This document shows positions 11,313 through 13,763 of a stretch of 64,000 nucleotides of DNA, in pieces. The position numbers and the translations under genes were made by a program. The notes under the pieces were generated by a model. The model did no database searches. It had not been told where the DNA came from and saw nothing but the letters and a program-made list of their open reading frames with translations. Source of the DNA: Prochlorococcus marinus XMU1405 (lineage in GTDB: Bacteria > Cyanobacteriota > Cyanobacteriia > PCC-6307 > Cyanobiaceae); NCBI RefSeq assembly GCF_017696275.1, contig NZ_JAAORF010000002.1:62001-126000 (forward strand). Reading direction: 5' to 3'. The first letter of the stretch is position 1. Each line of letters begins with the position of its first letter.

Positions 11313-12230
11313 ATGATCATGAATGTAAGTATTGTTATCCCGACTTACAATAGATTACCTATATTAGAGAAATGTCTCTATGCGCTCGAGAATCAAAAAT
11401 TAAATACAAATATCAGTAATTATGAAGTGATAGTAGTTGATGATGGATCAACTGATGGAACAAGCTCATGGATAAATAAAAATAAAGCTAATCTTCCACA
11501 CGTGATTCTGTTTGAACAAGAACATGGAGGTCCTGCATTGGGAAGAAATCTTGGGGTAATTAAATCAAAATATGAAATTATTATATTTATTGATAGTGAC
11601 CTTATTGTTTTAAATAATTTTATAAATTGCCACGTAGAAAAATTACTTGCCTTCTGGAGAAACGATAATAAAAAATGTTTTACCTATGGCTCGGTGGTCA
11701 ATACTTCTAATTTTCTAAATCCTCAGAGTGAAAAACATAAAATAATGGACACTTCTTTTGCTTACTTCGCTACTGGGAATGTTGCGATATCAAAAGAATT
11801 GATTTTAAGCGTCGGCTTATTTGATACTTCCTTTAGTCTTTACGGTTGGGAGGATTTAGAACTTGGAGAAAGATTAAAAAAAATTGGGACAAAATTAATT
11901 AAATGTCCAAATGCAGTAGGTTTTCATTGGCATCCACCTTTTAAATGCGAACAAATAGATTCATTAATAGCTCAAGAAAAAGAAAGGGCAAAAATGGCTT
12001 TAGTGTTTTATAAGAAACATCCAAATTTAAGGGTTAGATTTATGATTCAATTAACTCCTCTTCATCATTTACTTTGGCAAATTCTTTGCTTTGGAGGACT
12101 AATCAGTATTGAAAGAATCCTTCCTTTATTAAAATTTCTAGTAAATATACGAAGAAATAGACTTGCACTTGAGATACTTAGGATCCCTCTTAATATGATT
12201 TACATTAAACAGTTAAACAAATCAAGATAA
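11313..12230 (+). CDS. Family 2 glycosyltransferase
   Basis: A GT-A fold: N-terminal SIVIPTYNR (about 6-14), EVIVVDDGSTDGT (38-50) and the metal-binding DSD at 94-96 in FIDSDLIV. GWEDLELGERL (178-188) supplies the catalytic-base and acceptor motif typical of galactosyltransferase-like GT2 enzymes. The C-terminus (about 245-305) is hydrophobic and basic and may associate with the membrane. It probably builds cell-surface or lipopolysaccharide glycans; donor and acceptor are unknown. ATG at 11319 is an equally good start. Confidence 0.85.
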   Translation: MIMNVSIVIPTYNRLPILEKCLYALENQKLNTNISNYEVIVVDDGSTDGTSSWINKNKANLPHVILFEQEHGGPALGRNLGVIKSKYEIIIFIDSDLIVLNNFINCHVEKLLAFWRNDNKKCFTYGSVVNTSNFLNPQSEKHKIMDTSFAYFATGNVAISKELILSVGLFDTSFSLYGWEDLELGERLKKIGTKLIKCPNAVGFHWHPPFKCEQIDSLIAQEKERAKMALVFYKKHPNLRVRFMIQLTPLHHLLWQILCFGGLISIERILPLLKFLVNIRRNRLALEILRIPLNMIYIKQLNKSR

Positions 12231-12283
12231 AAAACTTTTAGAAATACGCATCACTTGTTAGAATAGTTGAAATTAAATTCACA

Positions 12284-12347
12284 CATCTGACAGTTTCGGG
12301 TGATTTATTAATATAAATTCCCCGTCAGATGGAGGCTAACCCGAAAC
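12284..12347 (+). promoter_or_regulatory. rpsB leader: two interleaved perfect complementarities (candidate pseudoknot)
   Basis: Upstream of rpsB, CATCTGAC (12284-12291) is perfectly complementary to GTCAGATG (12324-12331). GTTTCGGGT (12293-12301) is perfectly complementary to ACCCGAAAC (12339-12347). The order A-B-A'-B' means the two helices either form a pseudoknot or exclude each other. A GGAGG (12331-12335) lies at the junction, 23 bases before the ATG at 12359. The segment is GC-richer than its surroundings. E. coli rpsB is known to be autoregulated by S2 through a structured leader; an analogous role here is inference. Confidence 0.75.
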
Positions 12348-12358
12348 CTTTTTAAATT

Positions 12359-13063
12359 ATGGCTGTTGTATCACTATCTGAAATGATGGAAGCTGGTGCT
12401 CATTTTGGGCATCAAACTAGACGTTGGAATCCCAAGATGTCTAAGTACATTTATTGTGCTAGAAATGGAGTTCATATTATTGATCTTGTGAAAACAGCAT
12501 TGTGTATGAACAATGCTTATAAATGGACAAGAAACGCAGCAAAAAGTGGTAAACGTTTCCTTTTCGTCGGTACAAAAAAACAGGCATCAGATGTTGTTGC
12601 TCAGGAAGCTACTAGATGCGGAGCTGCATATGTAAATCAAAGATGGCTTGGAGGGATGTTGACTAATTGGACAACAATGAAAGCTAGGATTGAAAGATTA
12701 AAGGATCTAGAAAGAATGGAAAGTAGTGGTTCAATAGCAATGAGGCCTAAAAAAGAAGCTGCAGTTTTAAGGAGAGAACTTGAAAGATTGCAAAAATATT
12801 TAGGTGGACTTAAGGGTATGAGAAGATTGCCAGACGTAGTTGTTTTAGTAGATCAGAGAAGAGAATCTAATGCAGTATTAGAAGCCAGGAAATTAGATAT
12901 CTCATTAGTATCAATGTTGGATACAAACTGCGATCCAGATTTGTGTGAGGTTCCCATTCCATGTAACGATGATGCCGTTAGATCAGTGCAACTTATTTTA
13001 GGAAGACTTGCAGATGCTATAAATGAGGGCAGAAAGGGTTCTAATGCCGAAAGAAAAAATTAA
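12359..13063 (+). CDS. rpsB: 30S ribosomal protein S2
   Basis: S2 sits on the back of the small-subunit head/body junction and is needed for S1 binding. The sequence shows the family hallmarks [23 protein letters not shown] near the start, then [20 protein letters not shown] (about 98-106), LPDVVVLVD and the [19 protein letters not shown] region. At 234 aa the length is normal. It is co-directional with tsf, 43 bases upstream, the classic order. A structured leader precedes it and may provide autoregulation. Confidence 0.97.
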
Positions 13064-13106: not shown

Positions 13107-13763
13107 ATGGGAAACATTACAGCAAAACTTGTAAAAGATCTTAGAGACAAGACTGGAGCAGGAATGATGGATTGCAAAAAAGCACTTAACGAAACTGATG
13201 GAAATGTTGATAAAGCATTGGAATGGTTACGAAAGAAAGGCATAGCTAGTGCTGAAAAGAAGTCGGGAAGAGTTGCAGCTGAAGGTTCAATTGGTAGTTA
13301 CATACATACAGGTTCAAGAGTGGGAGTTCTACTAGAGTTGAATTGTGAAACTGATTTTGTTGCTAGAGGTGATATTTTTCAATCTCTGTTGAAGGATGTC
13401 TCAATGCAAGTAGCAGCTTGCCCAAATGTTGAATATGTCTCAATTGATGAAATACCCGAAGATGTTGTGGAAAAAGAAAAGCAGATTGAAATGGGGAGAG
13501 ATGATTTATCTGGAAAGCCAGAACAAATTAAAGAAAAAATAGTTGAAGGGAGAATTGCGAAAAGACTTAATGAGTTGGTTTTGCTATCACAACCATATAT
13601 TAAAGATAGTTCTCTTACTGTCGAGGATCTCGTTAAACAAGCAGCTGCAAAAATTGGGGAAAATATTAAAGTAAGACGTTTTACAAGATATACATTGGGT
13701 GAAGGTATTGAAAAAAATCAGATGGACTTCGCTGAAGAGGTCGCATCAATGCAATCAAACTAG
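13107..13763 (+). CDS. tsf: Elongation factor Ts
   Basis: EF-Ts is the guanine-nucleotide exchange factor for EF-Tu. The N-terminal UBA-like domain is plain ([21 protein letters not shown]), as is the TDFVAR motif at about 82-87 that contacts EF-Tu. At 218 aa it is the short single-core cyanobacterial/plastid type, not the longer E. coli form. It follows rpsB in the conserved operon. The next gene begins almost immediately after the stop, so it is probably on the same transcript. Confidence 0.96.

Follow-up and report, generated by a model that had tools for sequence, protein, structure and literature searches.

Autogenous leaders of ribosomal protein operons (those of L1, L10, S4, S15 and others) have RNA folds and ligands other than those of the rpsB motif. 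What they share with the element described here is their place in the leader of an operon whose product can repress it (Meyer 2009; PMC10931766). The rpsB motif is set out in Meyer 2009 (PMC2704228) as a helix P1, an optional P2, a P3, and a pseudoknot formed by the loop with a 3′ extension after P1; Cyanobacteria are among its members, their P2 being absent or very short, and a pseudoknot of five base pairs is predicted outside the Firmicutes. Judging from its name and its hits in genomes, RF01815 would be the Rfam entry for this motif. In E. coli, according to PMC10931766, excess S2, aided by S1, represses its own mRNA via the 5′ UTR; the ribosome site lies outside the S2 operator, rendering the details of repression unclear there, and the mechanism in cyanobacteria may therefore differ.

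Here, a leader element directly upstream of rpsB in a 64-kb window (i.e., the whole stretch of DNA that was analysed) is compared with these systems. With a probability of about 0.8, we regard it as an S2-responsive mRNA leader, namely the known rpsB motif in its cyanobacterial form. An earlier note on this DNA could cite no cyanobacterial counterpart; however, since the architecture and the pseudoknot are defined, and Cyanobacteria named, in Meyer 2009 (PMC2704228), the element is already known, and the newly found part is a lineage variant in the family of the window.

The Leader and Its Surroundings

The S2 protein encoded at 12359–13063 is identical to that of named Prochlorococcus. From the Prochlorococcus names and from general knowledge, we take the family of the window, which includes Prochlorococcus and is called f1 below (other families of the class being numbered likewise, e.g. 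f9 and f18), to be the marine picocyanobacterial family, and its class to be oxygenic. The gene name rpsB was assumed from recognised sequence, that of tsf from recognised sequence together with the known rpsB–tsf order, and the open reading frame that ends at 12230, upstream of the leader, is presumably glycosyltransferase-like, again by recognised sequence. The features of the locus are as follows:

12259–12264, + strand: putative −10 promoter element TAGAAT, read in the sequence
12284–12291, + strand: P1 5′ arm (helix A), CATCTGAC; read in the sequence, kept in relatives, covarying
12293–12301, + strand: pseudoknot 5′ arm (helix B), GTTTCGGGT; includes GGG 12298–12300
12302–12319, + strand: P3 hairpin, arms 12302–12308 and 12313–12319; 7 bp, inside the 22-nt spacer
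12321–12323, + strand: CCC adjoining the P1 3′ arm; partner of the helix-B GGG in the non-knotted fold
12324–12331, + strand: P1 3′ arm, GTCAGATG; read in the sequence
12332–12338, + strand: junction GAGGCTA; conserved, reads GGAGG together with G12331, not a Shine–Dalgarno (SD) sequence
12339–12347, + strand: pseudoknot 3′ arm (helix B′), ACCCGAAAC; read in the sequence
12359–13063, + strand: rpsB, ribosomal protein S2 (234 aa); open reading frame, presumed regulator
13107–13763, + strand: tsf-like open reading frame (elongation factor Ts), starting 43 nt past the rpsB stop

The pairing of CATCTGAC with GTCAGATG is perfect over 8 bp and that of GTTTCGGGT with ACCCGAAAC is perfect over 9 bp. 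The helices are interleaved in the order A-B-A′-B′, with spacers of 1, 22 and 7 nt, and the GGAGG at 12331–12335 lies 23 nt ahead of the ATG at 12359. In all of these coordinates and lengths the earlier note was right, as it was in judging a chance origin very unlikely: the perfect 8+9 arrangement is unique in the window (both strands, spacers within the ranges searched), and among 20,000 dinucleotide-shuffled versions of the 128-nt leader it occurs in one. The P3 hairpin, and the alternative GGG/CCC pairing that competes with helix B, were not part of that description.

A putative transcript start some 7 nt beyond TAGAAT would fall just ahead of the motif. At all 107 loci of the genus at which the leader was found (92 distinct leaders), there is a TTGnTAnnnT-type block no more than 40 nt upstream of the motif. 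The conserved CACTTGCTAGAAT-like block ahead of the motif in the genus (12231–12283 in the window; loci L001–L111) is a promoter candidate, with a start just 5′ of P1.

Conservation Across the Class

A first set of 100 rpsB leaders comprised 40 from f1 (one from each of 38 other genera and two from the genus of the window), 49 from the remaining families of the class (a single one for each genus) and 11 from other classes of the phylum. A second set of 40 more leaders of the class, picked for the nearest outgroups and for divergent families, brought those from outside f1 to 89 in all. The layout was found by one parser in 129/129 parsed class leaders (40/40 from f1 and 89/89 others), compared with 81 of 645 shuffled leaders, two of which reached the lowest real score of 11.7 (the second-lowest real score was 14.0); one divergent leader, L261, has a parser score as low as those of shuffles. 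As the parser demands GGGT followed by G or C, as well as AC[CT]C, the invariance of pseudoknot pairs 1–4 is partly built in. An unanchored search recovered the same helix B in 39/40 leaders from f1 and in 47/49 others. In L256 and L261, as parsed, some 23 and 36 nt separate P1 from the pseudoknot arm, possibly harbouring a P2 stem.

Within the genus, the motif was found at 107 of 111 loci, among which the window (L001) is counted and some leaders occur in duplicate, and all 107 leaders keep at least 7 pairs of P1 and at least 8 of the pseudoknot. Two of the remaining four loci are contig ends (L052, L060), and the leaders of the other two (L012, L071) are intact by eye.

The presence of the motif in other classes of the phylum was considered and rejected: of the 11 leaders parsed (L201–L211), seven gave nothing and four scored 8.9–13.0 and look like chance, two of these (12.4 and 13.0) lying above the lowest real score but below the second-lowest. 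By eye, ten of the leaders from outside the class had no clear motif. The other, L207 (f30), appears by eye to have a reduced motif, CACACGCCC...GGGGCGGAGG / CACACGCCC...GGGGCGGAGGACAAACC, and perhaps a knot of 3 bp; it was left uncounted, and it resembles the Firmicutes form in Meyer 2009 (PMC2704228).

Covariation of the Two Helices

Compensatory changes in relatives had been proposed as the check on both helices. Identical rows were collapsed before shuffling, leaving 27 of the 40 leaders from f1, 47 of the 49 in the first set from outside it, and 83 of all 89 from outside it; the shuffles ignore relatedness. P1 gave a strongly positive result. Among the class leaders of the first set (n = 89, 74 distinct), 97.6% of its cells are paired and 166 cells are changed on both sides, either value being reached by 0/1000 shuffles, and inside f1 alone (27 distinct) there are 22 cells changed on both sides (0/1000 shuffles).

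For helix B, the outcome differs inside and outside f1. Inside f1, it is almost invariant (99.6% paired, zero changes on both sides), so that f1 alone gives it no covariation support. In the first set from outside f1, the whole of helix B has 27 cells changed on both sides versus 17.1 in shuffles (0/1000), although its pair types are hardly above shuffles (109/1000 reach them). Pseudoknot pairs 5–7, in the 89 leaders from outside f1 (83 distinct), have 9 such cells versus a shuffle mean of 1.4 (0/2000), and their pair-type count was reached in 16/2000 shuffles. Changes on both sides of the pseudoknot occur in six families other than f1, and in E. coli, where pair 5 is G-C. At pair 5, U-A replaces C-G in L177 and L243 (f19); at pair 6, A-U replaces U-A in L175, L239, L240 and L241 (f18); and pair 7 is A-U in L236 (f52, in which L235 keeps U-A), L256 (f47) and L260 (f42), and G-U in L189 (f9). 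Outside f1, pairs 8 and 9 are non-standard in 35/89 and 63/89 leaders, respectively, which puts the conserved core of the knot there at about 5–7 bp; the knots of L242 and L245 have only 4 bp.

Relation to the rpsB Motif, to Rfam Models and to the E. coli Leader

Like the rpsB motif (Meyer 2009; RF01815), the element in the window is directly upstream of rpsB, has a P1 (8 bp) and a P3 (7 bp) with a 1-nt spacer that leaves no room for P2, and has a pseudoknot that joins the loop strand to the 3′ extension past P1. It differs in the length of the knot, which is 9 bp in 39/40 leaders from f1 (and 9 or 10 bp in 9/89 others), compared with the five base pairs predicted outside the Firmicutes in Meyer 2009.

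At Rfam gathering cut-offs, there was no match anywhere in the window. Such a cut-off is the curators' reporting threshold and no biological feature, and all Rfam matches found in cyanobacteria score below it. In a permissive scan of 251 bases, the t44 model (RF00127) matched the leader of the window on the correct strand with 29.1 bits (E 1.7e-4), and its gathering cut-off of 44 bits was not reached. At genome-wide E ≤ 10, t44 had no match in the window's own genome and also matched unlikely control genomes, e.g. that of a methanogen. RF01815 matched, below its threshold, 10 of the 59 genomes searched in the phylum, seven of these ten matches being directly upstream of rpsB; its cut-off (40 bits) was reached in none of the 59, the best scores being 31.2 and 28.5 bits (both at rpsB leaders), and there was no hit in the window's own genome or in 16 of 23 other genomes of its class. 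Among the leaders of 19 relatives (18 of the class, and L207 from outside it; E. coli apart), six had a match to t44 or RF01815 at E ≤ 1, all of them at the motif, and 13 had none.

The E. coli K-12 rpsB leader scores 83.5 bits with t44. In the coordinates of that leader (L212), CACGTATC is at 132–139, GGGGT at 152–156, GATACGTG at 180–187, GAGGCATA at 188–195 and ACCCC at 196–200, i.e., CACAC...P1...GGGGT...P1′-GAGGCATA-ACCCC, which is the order of parts in the window. The t44 model (L212 111–197) takes in only the first two bases of the pseudoknot 3′ arm and so leaves the knot unmodelled. The E. coli leader differs in having, by eye, extra pairing in the stretch from P1 to the GGGGT arm, and an SD sequence (AGAGG) that begins after 11 nt past the pseudoknot arm. 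The two leaders have the same order of parts and are homologous, and the earlier reading of a structured rpsB leader of pseudoknot type is borne out.

The Shine–Dalgarno Contrast

An SD-like tetramer was defined as GGAG, GAGG, AGGA or AAGG at positions −18 to −3. It is present in 89/89 leaders from outside f1, whereas it is present in 0/40 from f1 and 0/107 of the genus, and in the window there is none from the pseudoknot to the rpsB ATG. Outside f1, the SD sequence starts 0–7 nt past the ACCCG-type core in 89/89 leaders, and in 25 of them it overlaps the end of helix B as extended to its maximum length (for L240, the start was fetched 3 nt early, the true ATG being 3 nt further on, and the SD sequence is still within range). 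The background, for open reading frames of at least 150 aa with the first ATG taken as start codon and rpsB included, is 14/86 in six stretches from f1, 6/53 in the window and 26/110 in eight stretches from outside f1. Leaders from outside f1 thus retain an SD sequence at the pseudoknot as a rule, much more often than the background would give, and f1 is the only sampled group to have lost it. Three of the closest outgroups (L227–L229, S2 identity 71–73%) keep the SD sequence and have knots of 7–8 bp. The contrast in SD sequence and knot belongs to one clade and probably goes back to a single evolutionary event.

The GGAGG, which the earlier note had taken for a ribosome site that folding could hide or present, was rejected as an SD sequence. 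It is the conserved junction of P1 and the pseudoknot, at 23 nt from the ATG, which is not an SD distance, and a separate SD-like sequence is present near the ATG in 89/89 leaders from outside f1, 69 of which also have a GAGG junction. The junction begins with GAGG in 36/40 leaders from f1 (GTGG in the other 4/40), in 69/89 others and also in E. coli (GAGGC; GAGGCATA). The interpretation given in that note is partly supported.

The titles and abstract beginnings of the literature matches listed include no description of the SD contrast or of a long picocyanobacterial knot. In the available text of Meyer 2009 (PMC2704228), the rpsB section does not mention an SD sequence and the term Shine-Dalgarno is absent from the main text; neither a uS2 or t44 leader nor the string “cyanobacter” occurs in the available text of PMC7247131.

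Geometry of the Pseudoknot and a Competing Hairpin

For an ideal A-form helix, the distance across the deep groove is about 10 Å at 6–7 bp and 16.3 Å at 9 bp, so that, with coaxially stacked stems, a first loop of 1 nt would probably be too short to bridge all nine pairs. The suspicion that a one-base first loop is tight was well founded: a 9-bp helix B with such a loop misfits the ideal coaxial pseudoknot, and, on this model, about two outer pairs of helix B, or the top pair of P1, are probably open in the knot. The top P1 pair is non-standard in 12/40 leaders from f1, and P3 at the junction may relax the strain. The modelled steric strain of a full 8+9-bp coaxial pseudoknot with a 1-nt loop counts against our preferred reading.

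The lowest-energy nested fold combines P1 with pairing of GGG 12298–12300 to CCC 12321–12323 (−20.3 kcal/mol). When helix B is forced, at the cost of P1 because the two cannot share a nested fold, the energy is −18.0 kcal/mol; these energies cover nested folds, not the knotted fold. Inside the P1 loop, the mean pairing probability of the GGG in f1 (n = 40) is 0.967 versus 0.858 for the loop-shuffled control, being higher in 38/40, whereas outside f1 (n = 89) it is 0.598 versus 0.752, being higher in 22/89; for 50 unique loops of the genus, it is 0.987 versus 0.801. A CC at −3, −2 ahead of the P1 3′ arm is present in 37/40 leaders from f1 and in 20/89 others. These modelled pairings hint at a lineage-specific two-state leader in f1.

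Proposed Mechanism and Alternative Explanations

The following mechanism can be proposed from the parts of the leader and their conservation, from the fact that both helices covary within the class (helix B only in families other than f1), and from the order of parts shared with E. coli. P1 would close a loop that holds the P3 hairpin, and the loop strand GUUUCGGGU would pair with ACCCGAAAC just ahead of the start codon, giving rise to the pseudoknot. S2 present in excess over 30S subunits would bind the leader RNA, perhaps with S1, and stabilise the pseudoknot, which, being within the footprint of the initiating ribosome, would lower translation of rpsB and, along with it, that of tsf. By analogy with E. 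coli, where S2 represses together with S1, S2 presumably binds the leader in cyanobacteria too, rpsB would be repressed, and the pseudoknotted state would be the OFF state. In f1 the knot ends 8–15 nt from the ATG, and in other class leaders it abuts the SD sequence; as such positions lie within the footprint of an initiating ribosome, occlusion is the simplest mechanism to infer. Mutsuda and Sugiura reportedly described in 2006, going by the title, SD-independent, S1-dependent initiation of cyanobacterial rbcS, and for this reason S1 could matter in f1.

An alternative that we regard as possible, though not as the favoured one, is a two-state switch. In its ON state, P1 would form together with a P3 extended by GGG:CCC, leaving ACCCGAAAC free, the pseudoknot, formed once the GGG has left P3, would be the OFF state, and S2 would choose between them; the competing hairpin would then be a feature of the Prochlorococcus family. 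This is in keeping with the nested fold that contains GGG:CCC and P1 having the better energy, with sequestration of the GGG above control in f1 and below it elsewhere, and with the CC beside P1 that is frequent in f1. However, the alternative helix has no covariation because the GGG is invariant, the loop control, which preserves nothing but base composition, is already at 0.86, and the leaders from f1 are non-independent because they form one clade; in addition, the nested-fold energies leave switch and knot unranked. A related suggestion, which we offer tentatively, is that the operator was rewired in f1: the SD sequence would have been lost, the knot would have grown to 9 bp in the direction of the start codon, and a GGG:CCC hairpin competing with it would have appeared, resulting in an SD-independent two-state switch run by S2 (perhaps S1).

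It is improbable that the leader is a static structural element, serving mRNA stability or placement of the start site without regulation by S2. With the SD sequence gone in f1, placing the start codon may be all that the leader does there, but it precedes rpsB in every parsed class leader and corresponds to the S2-responsive leader of E. coli. A chance pair of inverted repeats, for which only the AT-rich setting speaks, is refuted by conservation (107/107 leaders found in the genus, 129/129 wider leaders) and by the covariation of P1, and the rarity of the arrangement in shuffles likewise makes it hardly credible.

Implications

The comparison shows that a single type of rpsB-leader RNA is common to E. 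coli and every sampled leader of the cyanobacterial class, and that the cyanobacterial copies fall below the cut-offs of both Rfam models tested. In the rps2 leaders of plastids, a relic of the S2 operator is worth asking about. The SD contrast (89/89 versus 0/40) can be seen as a natural experiment on the function of an operator after loss of the adjoining ribosome-landing signal. It is relevant both to S2 autoregulation, the mechanism of which is unsettled, and to initiation without an SD sequence in highly abundant photosynthetic cells.
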